DNA of 64,000 nucleotides, taken from Lachnospiraceae bacterium P6A3 (GTDB lineage: Bacteria; Bacillota; Clostridia; Lachnospirales; Lachnospiraceae). Made by a program: the position numbers and the translations under genes. The notes beneath the pieces were generated by a model. The model had not been told where the DNA came from. It searched no databases and was given only the letters and a program-made list of their open reading frames with translations. The stretch's first letter is position 1, and each line of letters begins with the position of its first letter. Of the stretch, positions 22,789 through 39,629 are shown in pieces. The stretch spans positions 124,001 through 188,000 of the forward strand of contig JNKP01000004.1 in assembly GCA_000702085.1 (NCBI GenBank), in the 5' to 3' direction.

Positions 22789-23049
22789 TTAATCAAATAC
22801 CCAATTATCCTCCTCCCCATTAAGCTCCCAAACAAACTCTCTGATAATGTTCATGGTATGATTTATTGCCTTGTCCCTCTTTGCATAGGTATGGTCTATA
22901 GCTCTCTCAAGCGGTACCTCCTTCTTGAAATACCTATATACATTCTCATTAAACGGAATCCTGAACAGCGACCTGGTTCTTTTGCCATCATTCATATAGA
23001 AATTCAATACTCTGGAATCTTCGTTTTTACACATGATTATTCTTCTCAT
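22789..23049 (-). CDS. Small 86-aa protein of the CRISPR-linked regulon
   Basis: The small basic protein starts MRRIIMCKNEDSRVLNFYMN and has no recognised domain or signal peptide. It contains a C-terminal TMNIIREFVWELNGEEDNWVFD helix-like segment. Translation starts at ATG 23049 after AAAGGAG. Its promoter contains the shared regulon element at 23095-23130, the reason for grouping it with the CRISPR island. Nothing in its sequence suggests a specific role. Confidence 0.6.
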   Translation of the reverse strand: MRRIIMCKNEDSRVLNFYMNDGKRTRSLFRIPFNENVYRYFKKEVPLERAIDHTYAKRDKAINHTMNIIREFVWELNGEEDNWVFD

Positions 23050-23094: not shown

Positions 23095-23130
23095 TAACTA
23101 GACGTATCCCGGCAAAAATTAACCGTTTTT
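23095..23130 (-). promoter_or_regulatory. Regulon promoter element, site A (86-aa gene)
   Basis: On the minus strand AAAAACGGTT (23130-23121) is followed after 19 nt by CTAGTTA (23101-23095). The element lies 46 nt upstream of the ATG at 23049. It matches four other elements of the island in both half-sites and in exact spacing. It also lies just beyond the stop of the upstream transglutaminase-like gene at 23149. Confidence 0.7.
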
Positions 23131-24192: not shown

Positions 24193-24247
24193 ATTCTCCT
24201 TGAAAATAGATTGGTTAATTGTTTCGGGGCATCATCCCCTGCACTAC

Positions 24248-24283
24248 TAAGTAGCCGGAAGGATTGATTTTTTAACCGTTTTT
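24248..24283 (-). promoter_or_regulatory. Regulon promoter element, site B (transglutaminase-like 1)
   Basis: Minus-strand AAAAACGGTT (24283-24274) is followed after 19 nt by CTACTTA (24254-24248). It lies 55 nt upstream of ATG 24192. Together with site C on the plus strand, 20 bp away, it makes a divergent, back-to-back pair of elements over a T/A-rich stretch. Confidence 0.7.
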
Positions 24284-24303
24284 CAAAAAATTATTTTTTT
24301 CAT

Positions 24304-24339
24304 AAAAACGGTTAAAAAATCCAAAGATATTACTACTTA
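24304..24339 (+). promoter_or_regulatory. Regulon promoter element, site C (small plus-strand gene)
   Basis: AAAAACGGTT (24304-24313) is followed after 19 nt by CTACTTA (24333-24339), then by AGGAGG at 24347-24352 and ATG at 24361. The leader would therefore be very short. The spacing equals that of the four other elements exactly. Confidence 0.7.
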
Positions 24340-24360
24340 TGGATATAGGAGGATATGACC

Positions 24361-24792
24361 ATGAATAATAAGAACATTACCAATGAAGAAAAGCTTTTTA
24401 TCGAATATGTACTTAACACAACTTTAATGGAGGAAATAGAAGATTATAAGACGGGCCGATTCCCCGACCTTTGCGATTCAGGTAATGAACCTCTTACACC
24501 CGAGGACAAAGCAGGAAAGGAGATTCTTTATTATGTAAAAAGGTCCATTGCCGAACGAAACAAAGAAATACTCAAAAGAATAAAAAAGAATGTAAAATAT
24601 AAAAAAGCTCTTGATGACCTTAACAAAAATTTCTACGTTGCCTACAATAATACCTTCGGAGTTGTTCCGGTTAATTCATTTAATGCAGGCGAATATCCCG
24701 GTGATGCCGTAAAAAGCCTCTCACCGCAAAAAGATTTCGAGACCGTACTTAGTGAATACGTAGAATACATGCTTGAAGATTTTTATAAGTAA
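24361..24792 (+). CDS. Small cytoplasmic protein 1 paired with transglutaminase-like 1
   Basis: The protein (143 aa from ATG 24361, chosen because AGGAGG is 8 nt upstream) is mostly helical and charged, without signal peptide. It is a paralogue of the protein at 28492-29007: both share NEEKLFIEYV/KEEKYLIEFV near the start and GVVPVNSFNAGEY/GYVPVNINNAKEY near residue 100. Both also end with a segment following FE(T/R)xx-x-EYVxYML type residues. Each paralogue lies beside a transglutaminase-like gene, which suggests a linked function. No family was recognised. Confidence 0.65.
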   Translation: MNNKNITNEEKLFIEYVLNTTLMEEIEDYKTGRFPDLCDSGNEPLTPEDKAGKEILYYVKRSIAERNKEILKRIKKNVKYKKALDDLNKNFYVAYNNTFGVVPVNSFNAGEYPGDAVKSLSPQKDFETVLSEYVEYMLEDFYK

Positions 24793-24847: not shown

Positions 24848-26686
24848 TTAACCAATATACCTGTCCTGAATTCCATCCAAAATGGTTTTCTTATATGAAT
24901 CTATCGTTCCATCCAATTTGATTCCAACCATTTTTTCAAGTAATTTAAGCGCTTCCTTCTCGTCCACAGTTTGTTCGCCTTCTCCGGCATGATTCATACG
25001 ATTACGGAGTATCTTAACTGCAAGATAGTAAGCCATGATCATATATGTTCTTTCGTTGTAATTCACTCCGTTTATTAAAGCCTGAACTTTACCGTCCTTA
25101 AGCCTGCTTATTGCAAATGCTTTCTTCCTGTATATTATATAACCGGCATTATTTTTCGGAGAGGCGATAGCTTTGTAGTCCTCCGAATTATTATATAAGA
25201 AGAAATGACGCCAATATATGTTGCTCCTGGTTTTTAATGCATTCCATATTTCTACTGCTCTGCTCGGAAGATCTCCGGGTTTCTCCTCAACAGCATCCCG
25301 CTCTTCAACGTATTCCATTCTGGGATATATATTTACCGCAAAATCCGGATCTTTCTTTAAATCATCCTTGTAGTATTTCTTCACAAAAGAAACAAACTTC
25401 AACAATGCATCCCGTATTTTTTTATCCTGAATATTATTTGCTTCACATGTTAAATTTTCAATTGCTTGGTCCTTAGTTATAGTATCTGTAAAAGAAACAG
25501 TACTGTTCTTTATTACTTCATATAATTCTCTGACTTCCAGACCTTCGGCGGCTCTGTCATATAATTCGGTATAAAAACCCTCATCATACTTGGTGTGTCC
25601 CAGCTTGGGTTCTATCTGAGAAATATCCACATAATCAGGAATCATATTATGTTCAAAATAATACTTTGGCATTTTATCCACATAAATGGTTATAGCCTGC
25701 TGTATCATATTATTATCAACGCACCATCTGATCATCTTGGGATAATTTATCTCTTTATCGGAGTCCAAATACATTTTCTTACGAATGATCGGTGCCAGGG
25801 ATTTCAGCATTTCAAAGTTTATATCGGACGGATATCCTTCCGAAGCATAATCCTCAACCTTTTTAATTGCCTCATCCAGCTCTTTTACCTTATTATCAAG
25901 GCTTCCGATATCACATATGGCAAGTGCATTTGAAAAATCAATCAATTTTTCAATCATTGTGATTGCTGTATTCTTCCCCTGTAAATCTTCACGGGGAATA
26001 GTTCTGTAGAACTTTTCCAGTTCATGTGCGTTTCCGGTATTTACAAATTCATTAACTCCATTGATCAATTGATACAGATCATATATGTAGTGAATATCAT
26101 ATATATTGTTTTTATACTTATTGGTTTCTTCTTTTACTTTTCTAAAAAGGCTGTAAACAATCTTACCGCAAACAAGTCCCCTGAATTCCAAAAAGCGAAT
26201 CATGGAGGTCATCAGAAAACTGATATCTCTTACACCACCGGTATAATCTATGTATACTTCTTCTCCCTCGGTAACATTTTCAAAACATTTGGATAATTCA
26301 CGATAAAGTTCAGCCGGAAGCTGCTTACCGAAATCCTTGTGGACAAGCTTGTCTTCACAGTCTTTTTCAAAATCATACGGAATACAGCAGAATGCGACAG
26401 AATCATTGCCGTATTCCGACAGCAGCTCCGTTACGTAATCCTTGAAGCGGTCGTATTGAGGTTTATCTTCCGGTTCGGTCATTACTTTGTACGAAGTAAT
26501 GCATATAACACGCTTAAGATTCTTTTTTTCTTTTAATGCAGATTCAATCAGGCACCTTACAGGCGCATCATTTGTTTGTGTCCCAATATAAAGTTCATCA
26601 TCCAAATAGTATTCTTCAGATTGGCTTCCCGGATGATAATCGCTTAAAAACAATAATAAATTGAAATCTACTTTTTCTGCACTCAT
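24848..26686 (-). CDS. CARF-HEPN RNase, Csm6/Csx1-like (TM1812-type)
   Basis: The 612-aa protein begins with a CARF-like domain: LLLFLSDYHPGSQSEE at the N-terminus and VYIDYTGGVRDISFL at 144-158. The D-T-G-G-x-R arrangement is typical of TM1812-type CARF proteins that bind cyclic oligoadenylate. The C-terminus carries a HEPN RNase motif, RxxxxH (Arg561-His566 in LRNRMNHAGE). Such enzymes cut RNA when Cas10 makes cyclic oligoadenylate. It is the last gene of the operon, 2 bp after the sigma-like gene. A long middle region (about 180-500) is helical and unassigned. Confidence 0.8.
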   Translation of the reverse strand: MSAEKVDFNLLLFLSDYHPGSQSEEYYLDDELYIGTQTNDAPVRCLIESALKEKKNLKRVICITSYKVMTEPEDKPQYDRFKDYVTELLSEYGNDSVAFCCIPYDFEKDCEDKLVHKDFGKQLPAELYRELSKCFENVTEGEEVYIDYTGGVRDISFLMTSMIRFLEFRGLVCGKIVYSLFRKVKEETNKYKNNIYDIHYIYDLYQLINGVNEFVNTGNAHELEKFYRTIPREDLQGKNTAITMIEKLIDFSNALAICDIGSLDNKVKELDEAIKKVEDYASEGYPSDINFEMLKSLAPIIRKKMYLDSDKEINYPKMIRWCVDNNMIQQAITIYVDKMPKYYFEHNMIPDYVDISQIEPKLGHTKYDEGFYTELYDRAAEGLEVRELYEVIKNSTVSFTDTITKDQAIENLTCEANNIQDKKIRDALLKFVSFVKKYYKDDLKKDPDFAVNIYPRMEYVEERDAVEEKPGDLPSRAVEIWNALKTRSNIYWRHFFLYNNSEDYKAIASPKNNAGYIIYRKKAFAISRLKDGKVQALINGVNYNERTYMIMAYYLAVKILRNRMNHAGEGEQTVDEKEALKLLEKMVGIKLDGTIDSYKKTILDGIQDRYIG

Positions 26687-26688
26687 CG

Positions 26689-27759
26689 CTATCTCCCCAT
26701 TTGATATTCTTTTACTATTTCTCTGTATTGTTTACGATATTTTCCAACGTATGCATCCCCATGCATATCCGGAATTGTTCTGTTTATTTCGGCATCGATG
26801 CAATCGCAATAATACATATATGCTTCAATCAAAGATGCATGGAACGGACATTCAGGAATATCAAGTCCCTTTTCACTCATGTGATCGATTTCAAACAGCT
26901 TTTTATATACTGAAATGTATTCTTCGTTAGATGTTACTTTTTCTATCAGATCTCTGATGATCATAGTCTTCTTAAAAGAACTCTTAATCAGATCCATCAG
27001 CCTTGTGACGTCTTCCACCATTATATAATCAACCAATCTGTCATCCAGATTTTCGTAAATTTCATATGAATGGCGGCTTTCCTCATATAATCTCTCGTCC
27101 AAATACTTCATCATATAAATAATTCCTTCTGTGAAGAAAATTCTATACATTTTGGCCTGAGACTTTTTGCGGTCTTTTAACAGCTTAATGATGTTTACAG
27201 CAAGAAGAATTCCCGATTCCGCATCTATAGCGTCAGCCTCCGTCGGGGATGCATTTTTCATATCCTTATAAATTTCAGGATTTTCTACTATTTCTCCCTC
27301 TTCATCAAATTTGACTTCCAGACTTTTTAAACGACTTTCTTTTTTAGTTTTATCAGGATTGTCCGGATCCTCAACCTCTATCATGTCAATGTCAAACGCA
27401 TCGAGAAAAGCTTGATTCAGATTTAGTAAGAAGAAATTGACGAATCCCTTTTCCTTGTCGGGATTATATGTAGCAGTTATAGACTGAATCTCTTCGTCAA
27501 AAATCGATTCATATTCATCATTATGATCCGATCTATTATTGCTCGCCAATCTCATCAATGTTTTTCTGTTTTCAAACAGCATCATGATAACTGAAAAAAA
27601 TACATTTTTGTTATCGATTTCGAAAATATGATTTCCGTTCTCATCATTCTTATAAATATTCCTTCCCCTTTCATCGATTCCAAGAATGATTACATGAGCT
27701 CCGACACCATACTCCCGGACATATTCATCAATCTTCTTCTTTTCTTCTTTAAATCCCAT
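26689..27759 (-). CDS. Sigma-70-like protein in the CARF operon
   Basis: ATG 27759 was chosen because GGAGG lies 8 nt upstream (a longer reading uses GTG). The 356-aa protein is not a standard family by inspection. It resembles divergent sigma-70-like proteins of Lachnospiraceae. DEYESIFDEEIQSITATYNP with DKEKGFVNFFLLNLNQAFLD (about 81-120) looks like a region-2 helix pair. A long acidic linker follows, then KMYRIFFTEGIIYMM (about 203-217) and a helical C-terminus (LVDYIMVEDVTRLMDLI, further ECPFHASLIEAYMYYC) in the region-4-like place. DNA binding is inferred. It sits between a CARF gene and a CARF-HEPN gene. Confidence 0.4.
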   Translation of the reverse strand: MGFKEEKKKIDEYVREYGVGAHVIILGIDERGRNIYKNDENGNHIFEIDNKNVFFSVIMMLFENRKTLMRLASNNRSDHNDEYESIFDEEIQSITATYNPDKEKGFVNFFLLNLNQAFLDAFDIDMIEVEDPDNPDKTKKESRLKSLEVKFDEEGEIVENPEIYKDMKNASPTEADAIDAESGILLAVNIIKLLKDRKKSQAKMYRIFFTEGIIYMMKYLDERLYEESRHSYEIYENLDDRLVDYIMVEDVTRLMDLIKSSFKKTMIIRDLIEKVTSNEEYISVYKKLFEIDHMSEKGLDIPECPFHASLIEAYMYYCDCIDAEINRTIPDMHGDAYVGKYRKQYREIVKEYQMGR

Positions 27760-27761
27760 CG

Positions 27762-28385
27762 TCACTCCTCCAGCCCAAGCAGTCTCCGGATTACAGTTTT
27801 GGGGTCCGTTGCTCCGTCCAAAGACAGATGATTAACGATCTGATTCATGAAAAATGTTGCTGTTACATCATAAAGATAACCGCTCTTAACCTCTCCTGCG
27901 CTTCGGTTTATCTTACCGTATACGATCTTTTCAATGGTAACGTTCTTACAGGTTCTGTAAGCAAAGTTCAAAGCCATCATTTCAACTATGGGAATCGGTT
28001 TTGTTCCGAAGGTTTCGCAGACATACATTCTGTCCTCATCATTAATGTGCGAAATCAGCCTTTCAAACAAAAGCAGCTGAGAATCAATGTTTTCTTCGGG
28101 CTCAGCATCTATAACCGTCCATTTTATCTTTGAAAAATTTTTGCCTAATGCTTCAATCTCATTTTTAAGCACTTCGTAATTCTTTTTCACATCCTCATTA
28201 TCGCGTTCCATCATGCATAAGATTTCTGCTTCCTCATCTTCTTCCAGAAAATTCTCTATTAAAACCGATATCGGAAAAGAAACCGGATTATCTATCACTA
28301 CCGAATCCATATCAACAGGAATGTATAAAATCTTGCTAAGATTATTGCCATATTGCATTGATACATATGTCAGAAATTTTTTCAT
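27762..28385 (-). CDS. Stand-alone CARF-like (TM1812-type) sensor
   Basis: This 207-aa protein has the Rossmann-like organisation of a CARF domain without a fused effector. LTYVSMQYGNNLSKILYIP is near the N-terminus, a ligand-loop-like VCETFGTKPIPIVEMMALNFAY at about 122-143 matches the YIDYTGGVRDISF segment of the CARF-HEPN neighbour, and a short C-terminal helical tail follows. No nuclease motif is visible. It could sense cyclic oligoadenylate and control the adjacent sigma-like protein, act as a ring nuclease, or simply bind ligand. It ends 2 bp before the ATG of the sigma-like gene, so the two should be translated together. Confidence 0.6.
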   Translation of the reverse strand: MKKFLTYVSMQYGNNLSKILYIPVDMDSVVIDNPVSFPISVLIENFLEEDEEAEILCMMERDNEDVKKNYEVLKNEIEALGKNFSKIKWTVIDAEPEENIDSQLLLFERLISHINDEDRMYVCETFGTKPIPIVEMMALNFAYRTCKNVTIEKIVYGKINRSAGEVKSGYLYDVTATFFMNQIVNHLSLDGATDPKTVIRRLLGLEE

Positions 28386-28491: not shown

Positions 28492-29007
28492 CTACTTAAC
28501 CCTCCTTAATCCGCCCTTTTTATTATTATTCTCAACCATTCTTTTTACGTGCACTTCCAGATCGGCCAACGCGTTCTCAAACGCCATTCTGGAGATTATT
28601 CCGTCATCAACAAATTCATTTACCATTCTGTCGAAACTTTGATAAGGCATGGGGCCCCAGGTATTCTCTTCTTTGTATTCCTTTGCATTATTAATGTTTA
28701 CAGGAACATATCCGTACCTCTCCGTTTCTACCACCCGGAAATAATGGTCCATATGAAACAGCTCTTTTCTGAAGGGTCCGACCTTTCTGATTTTTGAAAA
28801 AAGTTCCCACTTTCTGTCGGTATAGCAGGCTATCATTGCACACATCATGTCATACCCTATCTCATCTTCTCTGGACTTAAATTCTTCCTCGCCTGTGTGT
28901 ATGTCCGGGTATCTTTCACTGCGCATTTTTTCAAGCCTGTATATCATATGTTCAACTTCAACGAATTCAATTAAATACTTCTCTTCCTTAGTCATCTCGG
29001 TGCCCAT
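28492..29007 (-). CDS. Small cytoplasmic protein 2 paired with transglutaminase-like 2
   Basis: ATG 29007 was chosen because GGAGGTGATG precedes it directly. The 171-aa protein is charged and helical, with no signal peptide. It is a paralogue of the protein at 24361-24792: same order of EEK-LIEF at the start and VPVNINNAKEY at about residue 110, with a longer C-terminus ending in a basic NNNKKGGLRRVK. It lies 29 bp after the transglutaminase-like gene, so the two are co-transcribed. Function unknown. Confidence 0.7.
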   Translation of the reverse strand: MGTEMTKEEKYLIEFVEVEHMIYRLEKMRSERYPDIHTGEEEFKSREDEIGYDMMCAMIACYTDRKWELFSKIRKVGPFRKELFHMDHYFRVVETERYGYVPVNINNAKEYKEENTWGPMPYQSFDRMVNEFVDDGIISRMAFENALADLEVHVKRMVENNNKKGGLRRVK

Positions 29008-29036
29008 CACATCACCTCCATTATCGGATTGGTACA

Positions 29037-30119
29037 TCAGAAATAATCCTCCGTGCGCCAGACTGTATGGTACAACATCTGATCCCCGGTCTTGAGCAGA
29101 TATGAATTGCTGTACAGATCCATGACCGAATTTACCGGGTCGTCTTTGGTAACATCGACATAAAGCCACTGACCGTTAACAAACACCGAGTTCCAGGAAT
29201 GGTATCCGCCGGACTCGCCCAGAACAACATTGCAGGGAATATCCAATAAAGCCATGAAATACTCAAAGGTCACCGCATAACCATGACATACTCCGGTTCT
29301 TTCGAACATGAACCCCTGGATTTTACGGCAATTCAGCCCACAACTAAGGTCGTAATGAGCATAGCCGACCATCCAGTCATGTATCGCAATAACCTTCTGA
29401 ACATCTGACATATCAGGGGTAATAATATATGCCGCAACCTGAGCTGCAAGGATCTTTGCATTTGCTTCATCTGTTATTCCCGCTGCGGGTCTGCCTTCAT
29501 ATACACCTATAGTCTTATAATGGTTCCAAAGAGCTGCTTTGTCGGTTCCATAGAGTGCAGCTATATCAGGGTTCATCATTGCATAGTAATTCGCGTCAAA
29601 AAGCGCAGACTCGTCCACATATATTTTGCTGTTAATCGATGCTCTGTACCCATCGTAATCCGCACAGTAGATAAGCATCCACTCGCGGTCGGGATAAGCC
29701 ACTTTAGAATTCTCCAGAATATATCCGTTATTAATAAGAGCAGAAAAAGCAAGAAGCTGCTTCTCTGCCCAGTATCCCTGCATGGGAACAGGCGCGGGTA
29801 CATTATCATAATTACTGACATAGGGAAGCCAGCCGGCGCTTCTTCCGACAGTAAGATAGTGCTGATATAAAGCTTCGGGAGTTCCGCCTACGGCATAAGC
29901 TACCTCGGGATGAGCCCAGGCATAATAATTGTGATCAAATACATTTCCGTCTGACATCATGTGAAGGTGACCCACGCCGCTGTAGGGTCCGGGATCCTGA
30001 ATATCGATATAGGAAATATCCATCGCCTGAACAGACGAAGGAATTAAAAGCGCTCCTATCATTACGCCAACAGCCATAACTACGATTCCTGCTACATTCT
30101 TTATTACATTCTTTTCCAT
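29037..30119 (-). CDS. Secreted transglutaminase-like protein 2
   Basis: ATG 30119 was taken as the start because AAGGAG lies 7 nt upstream; the longer reading begins with TTG. The 360-aa product has a signal peptide (MEKNVIKNVAGIVVMAVGVM onward), FDHNYYAWAHPEVAYAVGG and FDANYYAMMNPDIAALYG repeats, and a C-terminal transglutaminase-like domain. The domain has Cys in RTGVCHGYAVTFEYFM, His in GGYHSWNSVF and Asp in YVDVTKDDP. It is a paralogue of 23149-24192. Site D (30183-30218) is its promoter element, 63 nt upstream. It heads the operon leading to the CARF genes. Confidence 0.8.
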   Translation of the reverse strand: MEKNVIKNVAGIVVMAVGVMIGALLIPSSVQAMDISYIDIQDPGPYSGVGHLHMMSDGNVFDHNYYAWAHPEVAYAVGGTPEALYQHYLTVGRSAGWLPYVSNYDNVPAPVPMQGYWAEKQLLAFSALINNGYILENSKVAYPDREWMLIYCADYDGYRASINSKIYVDESALFDANYYAMMNPDIAALYGTDKAALWNHYKTIGVYEGRPAAGITDEANAKILAAQVAAYIITPDMSDVQKVIAIHDWMVGYAHYDLSCGLNCRKIQGFMFERTGVCHGYAVTFEYFMALLDIPCNVVLGESGGYHSWNSVFVNGQWLYVDVTKDDPVNSVMDLYSNSYLLKTGDQMLYHTVWRTEDYF

Positions 30120-30182: not shown

Positions 30183-30218
30183 TAATTAGATGTTTTTTTC
30201 AATTTTTTAACCGTTTTT
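30183..30218 (-). promoter_or_regulatory. Regulon promoter element, site D (transglutaminase-like 2 operon)
   Basis: Minus-strand AAAAACGGTT (30218-30209) is followed after 19 nt by CTAATTA (30189-30183). It lies 63 nt upstream of the ATG at 30119 and just downstream (in the direction of transcription) of the terminator that ends the CRISPR array. Confidence 0.7.
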
Positions 30219-30221
30219 CTC

Positions 30222-30260
30222 AAAAAAATAAAAAACTCTGCCGATAAGCAGAGTTTTTTA
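30222..30260 (-). terminator. Terminator of the CRISPR array
   Basis: AACTCTGC pairs with GCAGAGTT across a six-base loop, with A-runs on the left and T-runs on the right. On the minus strand it directly follows the last repeat, so it should terminate the array transcript. Its position supports minus-strand transcription of the array. Confidence 0.75.
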
Positions 30261-30634
30261 TTTAGGGCCCTGTGCGGGCTTAGATATGTTTAACGAACTG
30301 AAGCCTTTTGCAGCAAAAGCTCAGCAGATGTGTTAATGCCCTGTGCGGGCTTAGATATGTTTAACAGATATGAAGTTAATTTTTATTGGACCATCTGGGT
30401 GTTAATGCCCTGTGCGGGCTTAGATATGTTTAACAAAAAATCAAATTAATTGCCGAAAGGGTACATGGTGTTAATGCCCTGTGCGGGCTTAGATATGTTT
30501 AACGTATGATGAGTCTAATATGTTTATTCGGAGCTTCGTGTTAATGCCCTGTGCGGGCTTAGATTTGTTTAACGGAAAAGTGAAATGAGTAAAGCAGCAC
30601 CTAATACTGTGTTAATGCCCTCTTCGGGCGCAAC
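30259..30634 (-). CRISPR. Short CRISPR array (six repeat units, five spacers)
   Basis: The 36-nt repeat, read on the minus strand, begins GTTAAACATATCTAA, has the hairpin GCCC-GCACA-GGGC, and ends with the 8-nt tail ATTAACAC. The exact 8 nt after the hairpin fit the 5' handle left by Cas6 cleavage. Units lie at 30259-30294 (degenerate beyond the hairpin), 30330-30365, 30399-30434, 30468-30503, 30538-30573 (one mismatch) and 30609-30634 (shortened to 26 nt). Spacers are 35, 33, 33, 34 and 35 nt. It lies 62 bp downstream of the last cas gene. No clear leader is visible. Confidence 0.9.
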
Positions 30635-30696
30635 CAACATTTTCAGCCATCTCGCAAAGGCTACATAAACAGAAGGCTTTCCGGATGCATAAAAAA

Positions 30697-32748
30697 TTAT
30701 GCTTTACCAACCGGATACCACTTGTCTCGTTCAATCCCATTCTTATCCGGCCGCTTTCCTCCATAACGCACTTCAACTCTGCAACCATCGTAATTTTTCT
30801 CAGCATCATAGAAATCTGCTCTTCCACCGTTATCAAGTTTTACATATGCAAATATTCCCTTCGGATTATATCCTGTAACTACTCCTGTATAAGTCTTACC
30901 CTCCTCATATGAAAGATCCTGTCTGTATGAAGTCTTTCCATAATTACCACCGGATCCGTCATCAACAAATTCTTTTGCTTTCAACAATGCCGTATTTGCA
31001 TTCAAAATACTCGGAAGTGTTTGATCAATTTTTCCCGAAGTTTGTTTACTATTAGTATCCCAATTGTCGGAGAACCATTTGTGTGAAGCTGTATCGTTCT
31101 CTTTTTTCCCGGCTCCGGGATTTGTGATAAAGGGGTAGGATACAGTATTCCCCTCAGTGGATCTGATATTCATGATTGTGAGAAGTTCACTGTTCTCCGT
31201 GATATTAAAAGGATTACTTATATCAACAGTCTCATTTTCCGAGATGCCATATGGATTCAGACTTCTTAAATATTCCTTTGTTATAGTTATCTTAGCAGAT
31301 CCAAGGCCAATAGGTTTTCCGTGTCCGATCTTATAACAAAGATCGCTGTCAGCTTTGTTATCTCCAAGTGACAGAGTCCACTTCAGTTCTTCATACTGTT
31401 CTCTGCTTATATCATCAAAATAAACCCTGAATCCGAATGTTTTTCCTTTCTCCACAAGTTCCATTGTGGAGTTTCTTTTTGTCTTTGTTTTCTCTATATA
31501 TGATTCGTCCTGAGAATTATGCCAGTAATACTTTCGACCTCTGAGCGAAATGCCGTCATCGTCGTATGATTTGATGGAAGCTTTATCTTTGCCTGTTGCA
31601 TAAAATGGCATATACGAGGGTCGGGGGCCTCCCAATTCCTTTAAAGTCACAAACGTTCCTTCATATTGTCCGCACGCCAGTTTTGCATCGGTTATCCTTA
31701 CATGGCTACCGATACTTTCATTATTACTCATTCCAAACAAAGCACAGGCCTTACACAAAGAGCTTCTATCATTACAGGGTTTCTTTGCTCCCAGAAAATG
31801 ATCCATTTTTCTCTCATATACTATCCTTCCGACACTTGCAAGAGAAAATTTATGGTTGTTACTTTCATACCACACAGGAATAACAGTTCCGTTTTTTTCT
31901 TTCTCCAGTAGATTATCAAAGCCTTTGTAACAATCACCCTTATCTTCAATATTACGATTGACAGCAGGATCGTTATACATACTGAATATGAGTTTTAATC
32001 CTTCAATATCATCATCGGTAACGGTAATATTCTGTCTGCTTTCCTTTTCAAATATGCTTTCAAAATGTTTTTTCCCGGGCAACGGCTCGCCGATATACAA
32101 ATAGCCTTCTTTTCCCAGATCTTCATTAGCCGAGAATCTATTAACCACGACTCCAACCGATATTTCACGGGATTTCTTTTTGCTGACGTATTCGGTCAAT
32201 GCAGAAAAGCTGACTTTCTGGCCATATTTGTAATTGGATTCCAGCTCATTTCTGGAAATCCTCTGAGCTTCTTTAAATTCCGGAAGATTAAAAGCTACAT
32301 ATTGAGGATCTTGAATAATGATGAGATATCTCTTTGCAGAGTAAAGCACCCACTTTCCTCCTTCATAAATAAGGAGTCCGGGCTTTCCTGCTTCAGTCAT
32401 CCCTGCTCTTTTGGTAAATATGTAATTTTCATCCGCAGTTACAAGGCATGAATCGGATGCGGTTTCATAGACTGTTCTTACGCAGCCGCGAATAGAGCTT
32501 CCGGGAATCATAGGTATATTATCCACAGGGTCCCTGAAGAATGAATATACCCCGTGACCATTAGCTTCTCTTTCTTTAAGTTCGGGAATAGCCAGAGGTG
32601 TTTTGGTAATAAGCTCACAATCGAAATATCCGCTGATCTTATCCTCTCCATAATAATCAGCAACAGGTTTTCTCGGCGTATTCTTCCAGTCAACACGGAC
32701 AAAGTTATAGGGATTGATAAACTTAATATCTGTATTCTTATATCCCAT
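30697..32748 (-). CDS. TIGR03986-type CRISPR RAMP protein with OB-like C-terminus
   Basis: The 683-aa protein is the last cas gene. Its RAMP character is shown by YSFFRDPVDNIPMIPGSSIRGCVRTVYE (about residues 68-95, the helix that follows the PxSSxxG loop) and by a zinc-like CKACALFGMSN near residue 345. GKPIGLGSAKITI (about 500) is a glycine-rich loop. The last 60 residues, including YTGVVTGYNPKGIFAYVKLD, look like an S1/cold-shock OB-fold. It would be a Cas7-like backbone subunit binding crRNA in a III-D-like complex. The end lies 62 bp before the array. Confidence 0.7.
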   Translation of the reverse strand: MGYKNTDIKFINPYNFVRVDWKNTPRKPVADYYGEDKISGYFDCELITKTPLAIPELKEREANGHGVYSFFRDPVDNIPMIPGSSIRGCVRTVYETASDSCLVTADENYIFTKRAGMTEAGKPGLLIYEGGKWVLYSAKRYLIIIQDPQYVAFNLPEFKEAQRISRNELESNYKYGQKVSFSALTEYVSKKKSREISVGVVVNRFSANEDLGKEGYLYIGEPLPGKKHFESIFEKESRQNITVTDDDIEGLKLIFSMYNDPAVNRNIEDKGDCYKGFDNLLEKEKNGTVIPVWYESNNHKFSLASVGRIVYERKMDHFLGAKKPCNDRSSLCKACALFGMSNNESIGSHVRITDAKLACGQYEGTFVTLKELGGPRPSYMPFYATGKDKASIKSYDDDGISLRGRKYYWHNSQDESYIEKTKTKRNSTMELVEKGKTFGFRVYFDDISREQYEELKWTLSLGDNKADSDLCYKIGHGKPIGLGSAKITITKEYLRSLNPYGISENETVDISNPFNITENSELLTIMNIRSTEGNTVSYPFITNPGAGKKENDTASHKWFSDNWDTNSKQTSGKIDQTLPSILNANTALLKAKEFVDDGSGGNYGKTSYRQDLSYEEGKTYTGVVTGYNPKGIFAYVKLDNGGRADFYDAEKNYDGCRVEVRYGGKRPDKNGIERDKWYPVGKA

Positions 32749-32750
32749 GA

Positions 32751-33212
32751 TTATCCCTCCTCAAATCCGACAACACGCCAATCCTTAATCCTGACCTGTC
32801 CGGTTGATGAATATTGGTCCAAATAGTATCTGATCCTTACCTTTGCACTGTTGGTTTTTTCTATAGGAAGATTATAAATACATCCGCCCGTGGAATGCAC
32901 TTTTCCGTCTTTCTTATCTATGCTTCCGTTGACATCAAGATACTGAATCTCGTCATAGTGATCAGAGCCCGTAGTATCATCAAGAATTCTTTCGTAAAAA
33001 TCTTTTCCTACCGTGGATCTGAACAATTTATATTCTGCCCCTGTATTAAATACTCTTATCTCAAGAACCTTGTCTTTTTTCGTATCAAATCCGTATTTAG
33101 CGAAATTATCCGCTTTATCTATGATGTATTCATCCGTCAGAGCAGCGATGAAATAGCTGTTCGATTTCTGAAGATACTCTCCAATTTTTCCCGGATATTC
33201 AACCCTGCTCAT
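32751..33212 (-). CDS. Csx19-like type III-D protein
   Basis: This 153-aa protein fits the Csx19 pattern from type III-D loci: FAKYGFDTKKDKVLEIRVFN (about residues 38-57, like the LREARLF part) and, at the end, YYLDQYSSTGQVRIKDWRVVG (the G-Q-x-x-x-x-x-R-L-V-G finish). It has no catalytic motif and is presumed to be a subunit of the effector complex. Assignment rests on remembered family pattern, so it needs a profile search. It lies 2 bp upstream of the TIGR03986-type gene. Confidence 0.55.
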   Translation of the reverse strand: MSRVEYPGKIGEYLQKSNSYFIAALTDEYIIDKADNFAKYGFDTKKDKVLEIRVFNTGAEYKLFRSTVGKDFYERILDDTTGSDHYDEIQYLDVNGSIDKKDGKVHSTGGCIYNLPIEKTNSAKVRIRYYLDQYSSTGQVRIKDWRVVGFEEG

Positions 33213-34474
33213 CGGAACGCCTCCTTTATCTCATTAAAGATCATGTCATATACATGTCTTCCATCAAGACCGTCTTGCATTTCCTTGCCGTTTATCGATG
33301 TAATCCGGAATATACCGCGTCCTATGGATGTTGCTCCTCCGATGGCTAGAAGTCCAAAGTGAAGGTCCGATAATGTAGCAGCAAGTGCGGATGCATCATT
33401 TTCATTAATGCGTTCTTTTCCGCTCCATCTTATATCCAGTTCGGTTTCTCCACCCATACAGATCTTTTCCGTAAACAGCGCCCCGGAAACCGTTCCACCG
33501 GTAAATCTGTCTATTGCATTTCTGGAAATAACTTTATCTTTAGAATCCTTTATTTCTGATTCACTGAATGACAGCTCAGAGCGTTTTGTTTCTTTTCCTG
33601 CTGTTCCGAATACCTTATCAACATCTGCGCCCATCTCCTCCATCCTGTGGCGAATCGCACCGGCCCAGGTTGTTCCGGGTATCACGGGAGCATAGTTGTT
33701 ATCGTTTGCGGTATGGGATTTAAGCTGTTCCATATCCGGAGAGGTGCTGTCGCCTTCGTTTACTTCGGTTGTATATCTTCTTATGGATAATCCTCCCTGC
33801 AAAGCAAGCTTAAGAGTAAGGGTTTTATCCGCACCCGTGCTTATATCAATTCCTGCAGATTGCCAGTGACTGCCTGATTCAATATCAAAATCCAGCCATT
33901 TATCTACTTCATCTTTGTTCTCAAGGTTAAAGCAAACCGAGTTGATGCTGTTAATTTTGATCTCTCCGAAGCCTCTTGTGCACTTACCGCCGAATGAAAG
34001 ACCGGATGAAACTGCTCTTTTAAGAACGCTCTCAACATAGTCTTTATCAGATTCATCGTAATAACTCTGCTCGATATAGGTAATAAGCTCCGTGCCGGCC
34101 TCAAGCACCTCCATATCAAACTTAGCTCCGTCCTTGGCGGTTTTATATTCGTCAAGAGCAACACTGTCCCTTATGGATACATATAATGATTTATTCGACT
34201 CACTGACAATGGCATCATAGAATATTACTCTGCTCTCCGATCTTCCACCCGAATTTTTATCTATTTCTCCGAAATATTTCTTTTTATCACCATCGTCAGC
34301 CATTTTGGAAGACATTACCCCGGCGATGGAGGATGCGGGGATATACGGCATACCCACAGAATTCCTGAGAATATCTCTGTCAGTCTTTTCACCCTCTCCG
34401 TATCCGATATTCATGGGAGACTGAAGAGTAAACTTTATACGATAATATTTTTTCTTTATTATCTTACTCATCAT
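33209..34474 (-). CDS. Tandem-RAMP Cas7-like protein (Csm3-type)
   Basis: The 421-aa protein contains two RAMP units. The first has FTLQSPMNIGYGEGEKT, then PYIPASSIAGVMS (about residues 35-55) and ends with FGGKCTRGFGEIKI (about 180). The second has GGLSIRRYTTEV and PVIPGTTWAGAIRHRM (about 265-282), ending with ATSIGRGIFRITS. RAMP proteins of this type form the crRNA-binding backbone and cut target RNA. The 4-bp overlap with Csx10 shows it is co-translated. The two units may be a fusion of Cas7 subunits. Confidence 0.75.
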   Translation of the reverse strand: MMSKIIKKKYYRIKFTLQSPMNIGYGEGEKTDRDILRNSVGMPYIPASSIAGVMSSKMADDGDKKKYFGEIDKNSGGRSESRVIFYDAIVSESNKSLYVSIRDSVALDEYKTAKDGAKFDMEVLEAGTELITYIEQSYYDESDKDYVESVLKRAVSSGLSFGGKCTRGFGEIKINSINSVCFNLENKDEVDKWLDFDIESGSHWQSAGIDISTGADKTLTLKLALQGGLSIRRYTTEVNEGDSTSPDMEQLKSHTANDNNYAPVIPGTTWAGAIRHRMEEMGADVDKVFGTAGKETKRSELSFSESEIKDSKDKVISRNAIDRFTGGTVSGALFTEKICMGGETELDIRWSGKERINENDASALAATLSDLHFGLLAIGGATSIGRGIFRITSINGKEMQDGLDGRHVYDMIFNEIKEAFR

Positions 34475-36609
34475 TTTTCTCCTCCCAGATATTTACGGTT
34501 TGCAAGCACGGCATAGACATATTCCGGCCATCTTGATAACATTTCATCTTTTATCTCATCTTCGGTAAGAAGAAGTTCCCTGAGATCGTTCATACATTTC
34601 TCTGTTCTTCCGGAATCGTCTTTCAAATCCAGGAATAATCTTTCGATCCTTCTCAGAAGTTTTTCTCCCTGGGCTCTGATGCTGCTCGTTTTTATGGATT
34701 TGATACGTTTTTCAAATTCCTTAAACGCTTCCACAGTCATGCCATACTTATCAATACTTTCAGTGAGCATAAGCTTCCATCTTCCGACGGCTGAATTACT
34801 TACATTTTTATATTCGGCATTTTTTATGGAATCACCTATTATACCCGCTACCCATTCATCAATGACTAAAGGAGTCAATAGTCTGCCGATATATTTATCA
34901 CACTTTGCTTCGGAATACGTTTCATTTATTTCAACGCAGTTCAGTCCGGCATATTCACACTTCTCAGCCTCGGAAAAGCGCACGAGGCCATAACCTTCGG
35001 ATATTCTTTCACCGATACTCTGCGATCTTCCGGTGAAATCTTTGCTGAGTTTATATACCAGATAGCTTCCGGCCTTTATTGCAGGAACCGGTTCATTCCT
35101 GAGATTCCACTTGGTCATATATCCGGTTATGTGCGTTGTCTGTATGGAAGAAAGATATCTGCTATCAGCATCGTTTTCATCTTCATATGATATTCCGAGG
35201 AGTGATGCAATTTGCTCTCTTATCTCATCGTAGTAAACGCTGTATCTTCCGTCATCCAGCATGACTGCCATATCCGAGCACAGAGTAACAACCAGATGCT
35301 TTCCTGCTCCGACAGTTATGTATTCATCATCCGCATTCTTTGCAGACATGTCAGCAAGACGGCACAGTCCGTACTGTGCGGTTCTGGATTTTCCGAAATA
35401 GCAATCTCCTTTCAGCAGGCCGATTACTTTGTCTGCATATTCATTCTTTACCTTTATGGTTCCGGCAAACTTCTGTCCGGGGACAATACAGTTAACGGAA
35501 TACAGCATTTCTGTGTCATTTCCCTTTTCGTGTCTGTGATGATATACAATGTCCCTTTCCACATCCAGAACGCTTATATCAGAGCCGGTGATGCTTACAT
35601 ACTTTCCCTTAAGCTTCTTGGGCTGATTTCCTTTTTCCGGATTGAAATCCTGATCCTCCGGATTGGGTAATGTTTTTTCCAGCGTACATACATACTTTTT
35701 GGTCTTTTTAAGTCTGTTTATATATTCCGGAGCGGGATAGAATATCTTCCCTCCGCGGCAAGGGTACATATGCGAATAAACAGTTGTCCCATCGATAAAC
35801 AGATTTCTGAATTCATCGGAATCCGCATTTCCTCCCGCACTGAGATATTTGGAAGCAAGCATACCGATGATCATTTTGCCTGATATATAATCCCTGGTAT
35901 CGCTTTCTTTCTCGGCACTCAAAACAAGCGGTTCTATATTTTCCATTACGTATGAGATCAAAGTACTGTCACCGACAGACTTTGTAATTACATCTGCTTC
36001 AGCTTTCTTATCATCACAGGAGGTGTCGTTTACCAGAGTGCATTTAACATTACCGAGACCGCGGTTTCTCTTTAATCCGATATGTCTTGTTGCTTTGAGG
36101 ATGTCCTCCACAATCTTTTCATCCTCATCGCTGTATGATACTTCGGCATAAAAAACCATGGGCTCTTCGCTGCAGGGATCATACATGTTTACAACTCTTG
36201 TATAACGAAGCGTGGAAGGGTCCGCAACTCCGTCCTTCATGGCAGTCTGTCCGACTACATGGGTATACCTGTCCAAAACCCTCTGACTATCCAACGACAT
36301 ATCTTTTTTCTTGGAATCAATGTATGCAGATAACGTCTTTTTATTCTCAATGTATGCGTTTCCGACTCTTAATGCACCGGATTCGATATTTGCACCCCTT
36401 CTTCCGAAAAGTCTTTTGGAAACATCGTCTCCGTATTTTGCTCCAAGAATACTTTCAAGGCTTTCTCTCATGCAGCCTTTTATTCTCTTTGCGGGGATAT
36501 AGGGAATTCCGTTATCGTCATAGCAAACATCCGAATCAATGATGCCGGCATAGGAATATCCGGAACCGGTACACAGATCCGATCTAAGTTCGATTTTTAT
36601 CCTGCTCAT
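34471..36609 (-). CDS. csx10: Csx10-type CRISPR RAMP protein
   Basis: ATG 36609 was taken as the start because GGAGGGGG lies about 8 nt upstream and the stop of Cas10 is 1 bp away; a longer reading from 36666 overlaps Cas10. The 712-aa product begins MSRIKIELRSDLCTGSGYSY and has GIPYIPAKRIKGCMRESLES (about 37-56). KRNRGLGNVKCTL (about 190) and SEGYGLVRFSEAEK (about 560) are typical glycine-rich RAMP loops. Csx10 is the Cas5-like subunit that defines type III-D. Its C-terminal 160 residues are helical. Confidence 0.75.
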   Translation of the reverse strand: MSRIKIELRSDLCTGSGYSYAGIIDSDVCYDDNGIPYIPAKRIKGCMRESLESILGAKYGDDVSKRLFGRRGANIESGALRVGNAYIENKKTLSAYIDSKKKDMSLDSQRVLDRYTHVVGQTAMKDGVADPSTLRYTRVVNMYDPCSEEPMVFYAEVSYSDEDEKIVEDILKATRHIGLKRNRGLGNVKCTLVNDTSCDDKKAEADVITKSVGDSTLISYVMENIEPLVLSAEKESDTRDYISGKMIIGMLASKYLSAGGNADSDEFRNLFIDGTTVYSHMYPCRGGKIFYPAPEYINRLKKTKKYVCTLEKTLPNPEDQDFNPEKGNQPKKLKGKYVSITGSDISVLDVERDIVYHHRHEKGNDTEMLYSVNCIVPGQKFAGTIKVKNEYADKVIGLLKGDCYFGKSRTAQYGLCRLADMSAKNADDEYITVGAGKHLVVTLCSDMAVMLDDGRYSVYYDEIREQIASLLGISYEDENDADSRYLSSIQTTHITGYMTKWNLRNEPVPAIKAGSYLVYKLSKDFTGRSQSIGERISEGYGLVRFSEAEKCEYAGLNCVEINETYSEAKCDKYIGRLLTPLVIDEWVAGIIGDSIKNAEYKNVSNSAVGRWKLMLTESIDKYGMTVEAFKEFEKRIKSIKTSSIRAQGEKLLRRIERLFLDLKDDSGRTEKCMNDLRELLLTEDEIKDEMLSRWPEYVYAVLANRKYLGGEK

Positions 36610-36610
36610 A

Positions 36611-38233
36611 TCAGTTTTCCCCCTCCGCACCATTCCACCACAGATCATATGAAATCGAAACATCATAGATCAGATTCCTTCTGAACTCTTCATTAAGCCC
36701 ATTGATCCACTGCCATTCTGTTTCATCATCGTCAGTGACGGATGAATGAGCATAAATTCTCTTGAGTTCAAGATCAAGCTCTGCAAGGCTTGTTCTCGCT
36801 GTTTTTGCAAGTCCCTTGATATTGCTTCTGGCATACTTATCAAACAGCTTTGCCATTCTTTCTACTTGGGAATAATATGTTACATTCTCCTCCGACGGGT
36901 TCTTATTTCCCCGGATAAACCACGGTCTGCTGATAATGTCACTGTTTTCTACTTCCCTGATGGATTCGAGGGACATTCCGTATGCGCCCTGTCCGATATG
37001 AAAATCTATAAAAGAGGCATCTTTAAGGTCTTTATCTTCACGCGCCAGTTCTTTCATCTTCTGTTTTCCGGATTCACACGCTTCCTCCGCTATTCTGTAT
37101 GCATCTGAATATGGAGCGTGACTGTGGAATACGGAAATACCCGCACAGGCGGATTCGCCGTTATTAACATCCAGATTATCCAGATAACTCATAGTACATT
37201 CCATAGCATCTTTGGCTTTTACTATGAAGTTAATTTCGTCACCCGCATATACAACTATCCTGAACGGATCTTCATTACCATCTTTAGGTGAGAGGGCTGC
37301 CTTTATACCTTCTTCAACGTATGTTTTCTGGATTGAATTCGAGAATTTTCTGAGAGCCTTAACACTTGATATGTAATCCTTTGTTCCATCCGTAGCGCTC
37401 TGAACCCGGGCTCCCATATTGTTTCCGTCAATATAGATTACGGCAAGCTTGGAATCTCTGCCTTTTTCTTCTACAAGATTGTCCAATAATTTTTCATTCT
37501 TGCTGAAGAAGTTTCTTTCGATCTCGGTCAGATTTGAGTGTCCGCTTTCAATCATTTTAAGCTCGGTATGGTATTTGACAAGCTTTGCATACGCCTCTTT
37601 GGTGAGCTTGCCGTTTTCTCCCTTTACCTTAAGAGTTTCTTTTATTCCCTTATCAAGCTCTTCATATCCGGGCATTAATGAATAATCTATAAGAGGCTGC
37701 GAAGTGCTTCGGTTAACCTTGGCAACAGGTAATACTCCCCAGGGATCCACTTTACTTTCCTGAGCTTCGTTAACGCGATGAGTCTTATACAATTTCTTTA
37801 CATCACTTCCGTAATCGGAAAACCGGTCATCATCAACAGGGATCGCTGTACCCAGTATCCTCAAAGTTCCGATATTCAGAAGTACTTTCTTCGTAAACTC
37901 ATAAGTAACTTTCTTAAAAGTATCTTCATCTTTAAAAAGCAGGATAAAGTTACCGCCGCCATCATATACGACTTCGCCGATGTATCCCTCTTCTATATGC
38001 TTCTTAAATCTTTCGGGAGAAAAATCTGTTTCATCATCACGTTTATAGGAAAAGATTCCCTTACAACCTTCTTCCATACCCTTTGCTGTCTCAAACAGAT
38101 AATCGTCAAAAACATCTCTAATGATCCAGGATCCGCCGACTATCTCCTGGATCTTATTGGTCCTGAAGATAAACTCCTGCTTACCTCTTACATCGTACAT
38201 TGCAAGAACCGGCTTCTTCATTTCACCACTCAT
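36611..38233 (-). CDS. cas10: Cas10 (HD-less, AGDE variant palm)
   Basis: The 540-aa protein has a Cas10 start (MKKPVLAMYDVRGKQEFIFR) with no HD nuclease domain. The first palm-like sheet is DGGGNFILLFKD (91-102). The cyclase palm follows: VIYIDGNNMG (265-274) and VVYAGDEINF (327-336), where GGDD is replaced by AGDE. GGDEF-type cyclases tolerate A at the first position, so activity is possible. It is expected to make cyclic oligoadenylate on target recognition. No zinc-finger Cys pairs were seen. It starts directly after Cas6, with GGGAGG upstream. Confidence 0.85.
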   Translation of the reverse strand: MSGEMKKPVLAMYDVRGKQEFIFRTNKIQEIVGGSWIIRDVFDDYLFETAKGMEEGCKGIFSYKRDDETDFSPERFKKHIEEGYIGEVVYDGGGNFILLFKDEDTFKKVTYEFTKKVLLNIGTLRILGTAIPVDDDRFSDYGSDVKKLYKTHRVNEAQESKVDPWGVLPVAKVNRSTSQPLIDYSLMPGYEELDKGIKETLKVKGENGKLTKEAYAKLVKYHTELKMIESGHSNLTEIERNFFSKNEKLLDNLVEEKGRDSKLAVIYIDGNNMGARVQSATDGTKDYISSVKALRKFSNSIQKTYVEEGIKAALSPKDGNEDPFRIVVYAGDEINFIVKAKDAMECTMSYLDNLDVNNGESACAGISVFHSHAPYSDAYRIAEEACESGKQKMKELAREDKDLKDASFIDFHIGQGAYGMSLESIREVENSDIISRPWFIRGNKNPSEENVTYYSQVERMAKLFDKYARSNIKGLAKTARTSLAELDLELKRIYAHSSVTDDDETEWQWINGLNEEFRRNLIYDVSISYDLWWNGAEGEN

Positions 38234-39205
38234 TTATATATCCTCCCTGCTTTTTTCGTCGGAAGTCATTTCGATTCTGTATCTTCCGAATCCGAAACTG
38301 GTATTTTTCCCTATATGTGTAAGTTCTCCGGCAATCAGTATATCCAGTATCTCTTCAGGAATATTTTCCACCGTAACGCTTCCTGTTATCCCCTCCAGAT
38401 ACATTCCGGTCTTTGTATGGTTTGAATATCTCCTTACGGATACTTTACGGTGCTTTTCTTCCAAAACTTTCGGAACGGGCAGGGTACCTGTATATTCCCT
38501 TTCTCCCAGCCCGCTCTCGATACCTTCATAGCAGTCCAGTATAAATAATCTCCTGCAGGCTGAATCCAGAACTGCTTCCATGGAAAACTCATCAATAAAT
38601 TCTTTATTGTATTTCACCGTTAAGGGAGATCTGAATTCTATTTTCTTCTCCCCGGCGGCGGAAAGTTTCCTTCTGCGGTATCTTACATAATCACCCACAG
38701 TACTTATTCCCAGTCTTGTGATGTCGATGCTGTCGCCGTCCATTATCGGTTCCCGCTTTGAATTGGTGACGGCCTTTATTGTAAAGCACGCATCATCACT
38801 TCCGAGTCCGCTCATCCCAAGAGAATAGAAGGCTCCGAGTATCTGTGAAAACCAGCATATTGTTTTTCCGAACAGGATGATCGAGAAATTTAAAGTATCC
38901 CCCGCGGAGAAGTTCTCTCTGTGATCATCGCATTCGATCACATAGCCCACGCTTTCGCCTGAATTCATAAACCTGGGCAGGATCTCCATTTTCGAATACA
39001 GCACTCTTCTGACGAGGCATTCATCCGAAAATCCGCACTCATCGCAGTTCCTGTCTTCTATGCAGTTTGAGCGCAGAAGCATCTCACCCATTCCGCCTCT
39101 TAATGCGGAGGATTTATGAACAGGGAGTATGCAGTTTTCTGTCATCTCCACGGTAAAATGGATTTTTACATATCGGATCTTAAGAAGCTTAGAAATATCA
39201 TCCAT
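38234..39205 (-). CDS. cas6: Cas6 CRISPR-RNA endoribonuclease
   Basis: The 323-aa protein has the Cas6 C-terminal pattern: RRYSNHTKTGMYLEGITGSV (about 258-277), VENIPEEILDILIAGELTHIG, and the glycine-rich loop GKNTSFGFGRYRI near residue 297-309. The N-terminal half contains ALRGGMGEMLL, also a RAMP feature. Cas6 cuts the repeat RNA at the base of its hairpin, leaving the 8-nt handle; the array's hairpin and 8-nt tail agree with this. A four-Cys segment (CIEDRNCDECGFSDEC, about 48-63) might bind a metal. Confidence 0.8.
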   Translation of the reverse strand: MDDISKLLKIRYVKIHFTVEMTENCILPVHKSSALRGGMGEMLLRSNCIEDRNCDECGFSDECLVRRVLYSKMEILPRFMNSGESVGYVIECDDHRENFSAGDTLNFSIILFGKTICWFSQILGAFYSLGMSGLGSDDACFTIKAVTNSKREPIMDGDSIDITRLGISTVGDYVRYRRRKLSAAGEKKIEFRSPLTVKYNKEFIDEFSMEAVLDSACRRLFILDCYEGIESGLGEREYTGTLPVPKVLEEKHRKVSVRRYSNHTKTGMYLEGITGSVTVENIPEEILDILIAGELTHIGKNTSFGFGRYRIEMTSDEKSREDI

Positions 39206-39206
39206 A

Positions 39207-39575
39207 TCAATATTCTCTGAACTGTTCGAATTTAAAGACTACATTTTTGACAGAATTGCCTTTGGAATCCACCCGTTCTTCCGCTATGCGGCAGGAAGTG
39301 GCAGCAACTACTCTGATTCCCAGACTCTTAAGATACATTATAACATGATATGCGCATGTAAACTCCCCCTGAACCATAACGGCTCCGGTATTTTTTCCGA
39401 GCATTTCGGCAATCTTTTCAGCCCATTCCCGAGCCGTGCTCTCAACTTCAGCGCCACTAGCTTTCGGATCCACCGTGGGGAATGCTACGTCAATAACTTC
39501 ACCGTATTTTGCTGCGGCGTCCAGCTGTTCCTTTGTCCAGTTTTTTGAGGGGTGATTTGAGAAATTAATAAACAT
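39207..39575 (-). CDS. Putative Csx15/Csx20-like ring nuclease
   Basis: This 122-aa protein opens the cas operon. It begins MFINFSNHPSKNWTKEQLDAA, like the short CRISPR-associated proteins of the Csx15/Csx20 group that start with a strand, SHP/NHP, then WTxEQ. It ends with a Rossmann-like half (AVMVQGEFTCAYHVIMYLKS, GIRVVAATSCRIAEE). Relatives of this group have been proposed to degrade cyclic oligoadenylate and so switch off the response. The assignment here is by pattern and gene position only. It is 1 bp upstream of cas6. Confidence 0.45.
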   Translation of the reverse strand: MFINFSNHPSKNWTKEQLDAAAKYGEVIDVAFPTVDPKASGAEVESTAREWAEKIAEMLGKNTGAVMVQGEFTCAYHVIMYLKSLGIRVVAATSCRIAEERVDSKGNSVKNVVFKFEQFREY

Positions 39576-39593: not shown

Positions 39594-39629
39594 TATATAG
39601 AAGGGCAGATCATTTTTTTAACCGTTTTT
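39594..39629 (-). promoter_or_regulatory. Regulon promoter element, site E (cas operon)
   Basis: Minus-strand AAAAACGGTT (39629-39620) is followed after 19 nt by CTATATA (39600-39594). The AGGAGG of the first cas gene begins only 6 nt beyond and ATG is at 39575, so the mRNA leader would be very short. It follows a terminator of the upstream diguanylate cyclase gene. Confidence 0.75.

Follow-up and report, generated by a model that had tools for sequence, protein, structure and literature searches.

The question raised by this locus is what the short gene at the head of a type III CRISPR operon in Lachnospiraceae bacterium P6A3 encodes, and from which promoter that operon is read. A first-pass annotation, made from the letters alone, had placed a 122-aa open reading frame at 39207–39575; it is present there, on the minus strand, with an ATG start (all coordinates refer to the window, that is, the whole stretch of 64,000 nucleotides that was analysed; Table 1).

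The first gene of the cas operon encodes Csx20

The annotation had likened the protein to the Csx15/Csx20 group by motifs (FSNHPS and NWTKEQ) that are both found in it. Profile searches place it in Csx20: compared with Csx15, Csx16, Csx20 and Csx3, it matched the PADLOC Csx20 model (PDLC01397) best, with an E-value of 5.8e-35 over residues 1–122, its full length. A PADLOC model for a CARF-HEPN-Csx20 fusion also matched (E 6.9e-23), the combined Csx15/20 model matched more weakly than Csx20 alone (E 5e-20), and the Csx16 and stand-alone Csx3 models were absent among the 7 PADLOC families listed with E-values of at most 1. We dropped Csx15 and Csx16 as identities, since the Csx20 profile was stronger and the Csx16 model was not listed. 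The NCBIfam model CAS_Csx20 (NF040559) matched residues 46–122 with 47.1 bits (E 2.9e-12), under its curated equivalog cut-off of 70 bits, which is a threshold for naming and not a biological trait. Because the PADLOC match is full-length and the relatives support it, the Csx20 assignment stands despite this shortfall. A Pfam search returned no family, and a sequence search of the PDB nothing usable (best E 0.25).

In two alignments, the protein is 39–49% identical to its relatives. Judged against 14 distinct sequences, with L014 and L113 incomplete in the count, it keeps N4, N7-H8-P9-S10, W13, Q17, G25, F32-P33 and Q69-G70-E71, as well as the conserved R96, E100, K110 and R120; from the positions that are at least 85% conserved it departs at two, V27 (I elsewhere) and A31 (P elsewhere). 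In L113, the csx20 frame extends upstream to include NFTNHPS, with no ATG to start it. By its profile and conserved positions, the 122-aa protein is Csx20, a known family and not a new one, and the earlier hedge that it might be a novel relative is unnecessary.

Predicted fold and activity of Csx20

A Rossmann-like fold had also been anticipated, and the single-chain AlphaFold2 model (8 sequences; pLDDT 94.9, pTM 0.82) agrees with this, having five strands and three helices and a Rossmann/CARF-like appearance. In the model, the NHPS, FP and QGE stretches come right after strands 1, 2 and 3, respectively; the edge after the strands is the usual ligand-binding side of Rossmann sheets. No PDB entry reached E 0.001 in the Foldseek search; a permuted ribose-binding lobe came first (1.5e-3), with Cam1 at 2.6e-3 and Sso2081 at 0.054. 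A second structure comparison was topped by CARF/SAVED proteins (Z-scores: SAVED-CHAT 6.6, Csm6 6.3, Cam1 6.3, Cap5 6.0, Cad1 5.9, Can2 5.5, Sis0811 5.4 and Sso2081 5.2). Since unrelated Rossmann proteins reach similar Z-scores (5 to 6.6), these values back the fold class and point to no specific relative. A five-stranded Rossmann-like fold with moderate resemblance to CARF/SAVED proteins is thus supported by the prediction.

PMC12409355 describes for Csx20 a CARF-like fold of five strands, with a DALI Z of 8.0 to Sso2081; it reports that Csx20 cleaves cA4, acts on cA3 at higher protein concentration and is strongly associated with the Csx1 effector. Csx15 and Csx16 are likewise presented there as small Rossmann-like proteins of type III loci. 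Compared by description, our protein and that Csx20 have in common the family, the size, the predicted five-stranded CARF-like fold and a Csx1-bearing type III locus, whereas the window's gene sits under a rare local promoter, beside a CARF/sigma-like pair. Since the published family member cleaves cA4, it would be reasonable for the window's Csx20 to do so, and we consider it very likely that this protein is a ring nuclease that linearises the cA4 made by Cas10, limiting Csx1 and CARF activity. Our analysis itself gives the family, the fold class, the conserved positions, the operon and the effectors. It is improbable that the protein would instead bind cyclic oligoadenylate without cutting it efficiently and act as a sponge, as has been considered for Csx15: that role was suggested in the same paper, where Csx15 had no clear activity, and the combined Csx15/20 model does match our protein, but the stand-alone Csx20 model is far stronger and the Csx20 assayed in that work did cleave cA4.

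csx20 opens a type III-D operon

AGGAGG lies directly 5' of the csx20 ATG, and a single base separates the csx20 stop from the cas6 ATG. Upstream on the same strand is a gene for a GGDEF protein (41389–39647) with a terminator-like hairpin at its end (39662–39636). Since this gene closes with such a hairpin, csx20 is the first gene of the operon; its earlier description as the first gene under a regulon element is confirmed for the operon start, and an exact copy of the element lies before it.

The locus around csx20 is a type III-D system (Table 1). In the operon, csx20 is followed by cas6, cas10, a Cas7/Cas5 III-D gene, a Csm3-like Cas7 gene, csx19 and a TIGR03986 RAMP gene; after it come a short CRISPR array, whose last copy is strongly degenerate, a transglutaminase-like gene, a 172-aa gene, a stand-alone CARF gene, a 358-aa gene and csx1. 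Both CARF proteins that the annotation had read downstream of csx20, the stand-alone CARF and the Csx1-type CARF-HEPN protein, are real. Cas10 has 540 aa and carries AGDE where GGDD is replaced; an HD family was absent among its Pfam matches at E up to 1. The locus therefore holds a cyclase-type Cas10 (AGDE) together with Csx1, a cA4-type effector. AGDE is one variant of the Cas10 motif in loci having known effectors, according to PMC11229360. Cas10 was recognised in 20 related loci, and its motif was AGDE in 5, DGDD in 8, AGDD in 3, EGDD in 2 and GGDE in 1, with none clear in the remaining one (L114).

Table 1. Features of the csx20 locus in window coordinates.
Feature	Coordinates	Strand	Evidence
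csx20, putative cA4 ring nuclease	39207–39575	-	PADLOC Csx20; NCBIfam CAS_Csx20 below cut-off; model pLDDT 94.9
cas6	38234–39205	-	Pfam CRISPR_Cas6 E 1.8e-11; PADLOC Cas6 E 5.6e-60
cas10, type III-D, palm motif AGDE	36611–38233	-	PADLOC Cas10d E 1.1e-82
Cas7/Cas5-type III-D protein, start may be further in	34471–36666	-	PADLOC Cas5_IIId E 2.1e-99
Cas7 III-D/Csm3-like	33209–34474	-	PADLOC Cas7_IIId E 3.2e-97
csx19	32751–33212	-	NCBIfam TIGR03984, 45.4 bits (cut-off 35)
TIGR03986 RAMP protein	30697–32748	-	NCBIfam E 7e-77, above cut-off
Short CRISPR array with six copies, of which the first and last are divergent	30259–30650		
Transglutaminase-like protein, signal-like N-terminus	29037–30119	-	Pfam Transglut_core E 6.7e-10 (longer ORF)
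172-aa partner-like protein, paralogue of 24355–24792	28492–29010	-	BLASTP E 1e-17
Stand-alone CARF, 207 aa	27762–28385	-	PADLOC PDLC01821 E 5.9e-79
358-aa sigma-like protein, CARF operon partner	26689–27765	-	8-partner profile E 9.1e-7
csx1, CARF-HEPN effector	24848–26686	-	PADLOC Csx1/Csm6 E 8.7e-39
145-aa protein under element	24355–24792	+	ORF; paralogue of the 172-aa protein
Second transglutaminase-like protein	23149–24192	-	Pfam Transglut_core E 2.7e-11
Small ORF, about 86 aa, under fifth element copy	22789–23049	-	Reading frame
Element copy 1, before csx20 and cas operon	39594–39628	-	Exact match
Element copy 2	30183–30217	-	Exact match
Element copy 3	24305–24339	+	Exact match
Element copy 4	24248–24282	-	Exact match
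Element copy 5	23095–23129	-	Exact match

Distribution of csx20

Matches to csx20 were found in 6 of 200 genomes of the family, its own included, the other five at 40–45% identity; scanning a viral contig collection with csx20 and with the CARF brought up no relative. A search with a CARF alignment yielded 29 CARF loci (see below), of which 20 have a recognised cas10 and 7 a recognised csx20 (L094, L097, L099, L102, L110, L113 and L120). The sigma-like gene is followed, as the next gene to be recognised, by csx20 in L094, L097, L099 (after about 1.1 kb), L110 and L120, and in L113 csx20 stands ahead of cas6, cas10 and the others in the same order as in the window. It was not recognised in 22 of the 29 loci, where the available DNA is often cut by contig ends. 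G116, the one genome of the same genus that was searched, has no match to csx20, to the 358-aa protein or to the CARF, which suggests horizontal gain or loss.

Two related type III-D loci have another gene in the place of csx20: in G007 and G368, a MYG1/UPF0160 protein precedes cas6 (L024, 13109–13930, and L025, 7016–7846; Pfam E 6.6e-42 and 5.2e-43). It is a candidate for another signal-degrading enzyme; no paper on MYG1, CRISPR and type III together was found in the literature searched. Csx20 domains also lie within frames of 842 and 518 aa (L012, G028:C77:4478–4834; L015, G092:C416:1187–1543), and may there be joined to CARF-HEPN proteins, the arrangement that the PADLOC fusion model describes.

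A bipartite promoter-like element recurs around the CARF gene

Five exact copies of a bipartite element, AAAACGGTTAA-N17-CTANWTA, occur in the 2.98-Mb assembly, all in the window and within 17 kb around the CARF/358-aa pair; the pattern was derived from the same five sites that it counts. Inexact matches across the genome number 0 at one mismatch, 3 at two and 26 at three; since these are not above the reversed-pattern control (41 matches at up to three mismatches), we take them as chance. AAAACGGTTAAAAAA is found exactly four times in the assembly, each time here, and three more times elsewhere with one mismatch. The five upstream sequences align at a constant distance to CTANWTA. In a separate test, neither 20,000 shuffles nor 20,000 random rotations gave a single case with five invariant columns in a stretch of seven at one offset. 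A shorter pattern with up to two mismatches was not enriched across the whole window (11 found, 7.85 expected).

The copies stand before csx20, both transglutaminase-like genes, the 145-aa gene and the small ORF; the operon that encodes the CARF, the 358-aa protein and Csx1 is without one. Consensus scans found no sigma-A-type promoter before either csx20 or the CARF operon, so that such scans cannot separate the two. The transglutaminase-like proteins are 40% identical to each other. Each forms a set with a small protein, and these two paralogous sets (28492–30119 and 23149–24792) stand under the one element type. It is possible that these proteins, with their small partners, are CRISPR-induced effectors. 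In the 29 related loci, a coarse search for 11-mers shared upstream of genes recognised no equivalent element, and the window's pattern matched 10 of 157 loci, all 10 from its own genome.

The CARF is paired with a divergent sigma-like protein

At the family level, PDLC01821, the PADLOC model matched by the stand-alone CARF, has matches in 7 of 397 genomes, and at the order level in 17 of 392 (own genome included in each); several of the matching proteins, those with long open frames, are probably CARF-HEPN proteins. The 29 CARF loci were obtained by scanning one genome per species (84,980 species) with a CARF alignment (A4). In 26 of them, the CARF has a partner gene after it, and the other three, L098, L109 and L121, end at a contig edge; in 25 of the 29, an ORF of at least 150 aa lies within 170 bases after the CARF, and the partner of L095 is read in another frame. 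Two partner-group profiles match the gene after the CARF in 24 of the 29 loci at E 0.01 or better, a count in which 19 of the matched partners had themselves built the profiles and five (L093, L095, L098, L104 and L120, the last appearing near-identical to L110) had not. The partners in L103, L114 and L118 are matched by neither profile.

Against 33 sigma factors, the profile of 8 partners aligns to one at region 2 (Prob 91%, E 1e-6), with reversed sigma, CARF and Csx20 controls at 0.1–0.7% and a score of 52.9 versus a maximum of 17.2 in 100 column-permuted profiles. A mixed profile of these 8 partners, the window protein, L095 and L104 scored 38.0 versus a maximum of 13.9. The profile of 11 other partners gave a Prob of only 5.3% and a score of 28.5 versus a maximum of 17.2, its alignment lying near the C-terminus of the sigma profile. 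An initial comparison, against 7 sigma factors of the own genome, gave a weak match (Prob at most 21%); with 33, the match became clear for the 8-partner group. Taken singly, the partners of L093, L095, L103, L104, L114 and L118 showed no significant match to the sigma profile, and neither did the window's 358-aa protein. Among the window's ORFs, a small database, this protein is the top match of both the 8-partner profile (next E 0.39) and the 11-partner profile (E 0.001, next 0.078), and the relatives' sigma-like partners are 13–21% identical to it. Pfam gave it a single chance-level match and the PDB sequence search nothing usable (best E 0.19), and it had no relative in the genome contig collection or, save its own copy, in the 200 family genomes. 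Its AlphaFold2 model was discarded (pLDDT 51.5). From the profile comparisons, the 358-aa protein appears to belong to a divergent family resembling sigma-70, and the CARF/sigma pair may plausibly be a module that recurs in type III-D loci, for the most part those of Clostridia. Two further CARF/sigma-like pairs (L026, 9683–11204, and L027, 9837–11347) have no cas gene recognised by eye, and one of them adjoins WXG100-like and other secretion-type genes.

Might the partner be a divergent helix-turn-helix activator or repressor and no sigma factor? Pfam would allow this, as Sigma70_r3 is matched in 2 of 26 partners (best E 0.00081) and Sigma70_r2 in 1 of 26 (E 0.14), the unrelated Sol_i_2 outscores the sigma families among the partners (E 0.00012), and one relative outside type III loci matches a repressor HTH (E 0.00019). 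The region 2 match of the 8-partner profile, with its margin over the permuted profiles, argues against it, and two boxes at a fixed distance suit a sigma factor better than an operator; we therefore regard a helix-turn-helix regulator as unlikely. A weightier alternative, to which we give a little less than an even chance, is that the element is real but served by another sigma factor or DNA-binding protein, and that the CARF/358-aa pair does something else. The 358-aa protein has no sigma match on its own and a poor model, its own operon lacks the element, and no exact match or recognised equivalent was seen in the pair loci of other genomes. A general regulator, however, would not be expected to have all five exact copies of its element close to the pair, with the rest of the 2.98 Mb free of them; and because the sigma-like partners of the relatives are so divergent from the window's, their promoters are expected to differ.

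A proposed transcription switch with Csx20 as its brake

We tentatively propose, giving it not quite half of our confidence, that the CARF/sigma-like pair serves a dedicated promoter of the alternative-sigma type, from which the cas operon is read; such a regulon is suggested by the closeness of the genes, by a promoter set unique to this locality and by remote homology. The scheme can be stated as follows. The type III-D Cas10 would make cA4 as the alarm; the stand-alone CARF would sense cyclic oligoadenylate and free or activate its operon partner; and the partner, a new divergent sigma factor, would drive five local promoters, which would feed the csx20-led cas operon and the two transglutaminase-like/small-protein sets. 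If the operon is under a promoter served by the alarm, the alarm would raise the cas genes and their off-switch together. Csx20 would linearise cA4, shortening the time for which the Csx1 ribonuclease and the stand-alone CARF are active, and would thereby act as a brake inside a positive feedback loop. The whole would amount to a protease-free CRISPR transcription switch, which we put forward as a conceivable arrangement falling somewhat short of probable.

The nearest published systems in the literature searched are CalpL-CalpT-CalpS, Csa3 and the Csx29 endopeptidase. The Csx29-Csx30-RpoE system of type III-E is said to link a CRISPR effector to a sigma factor, reportedly by RNA-activated proteolysis without a cyclic nucleotide step. 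CalpL-CalpT-CalpS likewise turns a cA4 alarm into a sigma-factor response, relying, according to PMC11229360, on a SAVED-Lon protease and an anti-sigma factor. We dropped it as an identity for the present locus, as SAVED and Lon are absent among the PADLOC and Pfam matches listed for 14 locus proteins. Csa3 is likewise a case of CARF-controlled transcription, but according to PMC9704534 its CARF and HTH are fused in one protein, whereas the window has separate genes and a sigma-like partner. In the titles and abstract openings searched, a scope outside which the 2020 CARF classification lies, we found no description of a stand-alone CARF with a sigma factor.

Csx20 by itself is one further member of a known family, the ordinary and well supported part of this work. 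The locus raises the questions of whether the alarm induces its own off-switch and whether the transglutaminase-like proteins are CRISPR-induced effectors. If the proposed circuit is true, type III immunity would have, beside the protease route, another way of passing a cyclic oligoadenylate signal to a sigma factor, and the five promoters would name its apparent output in one genome.
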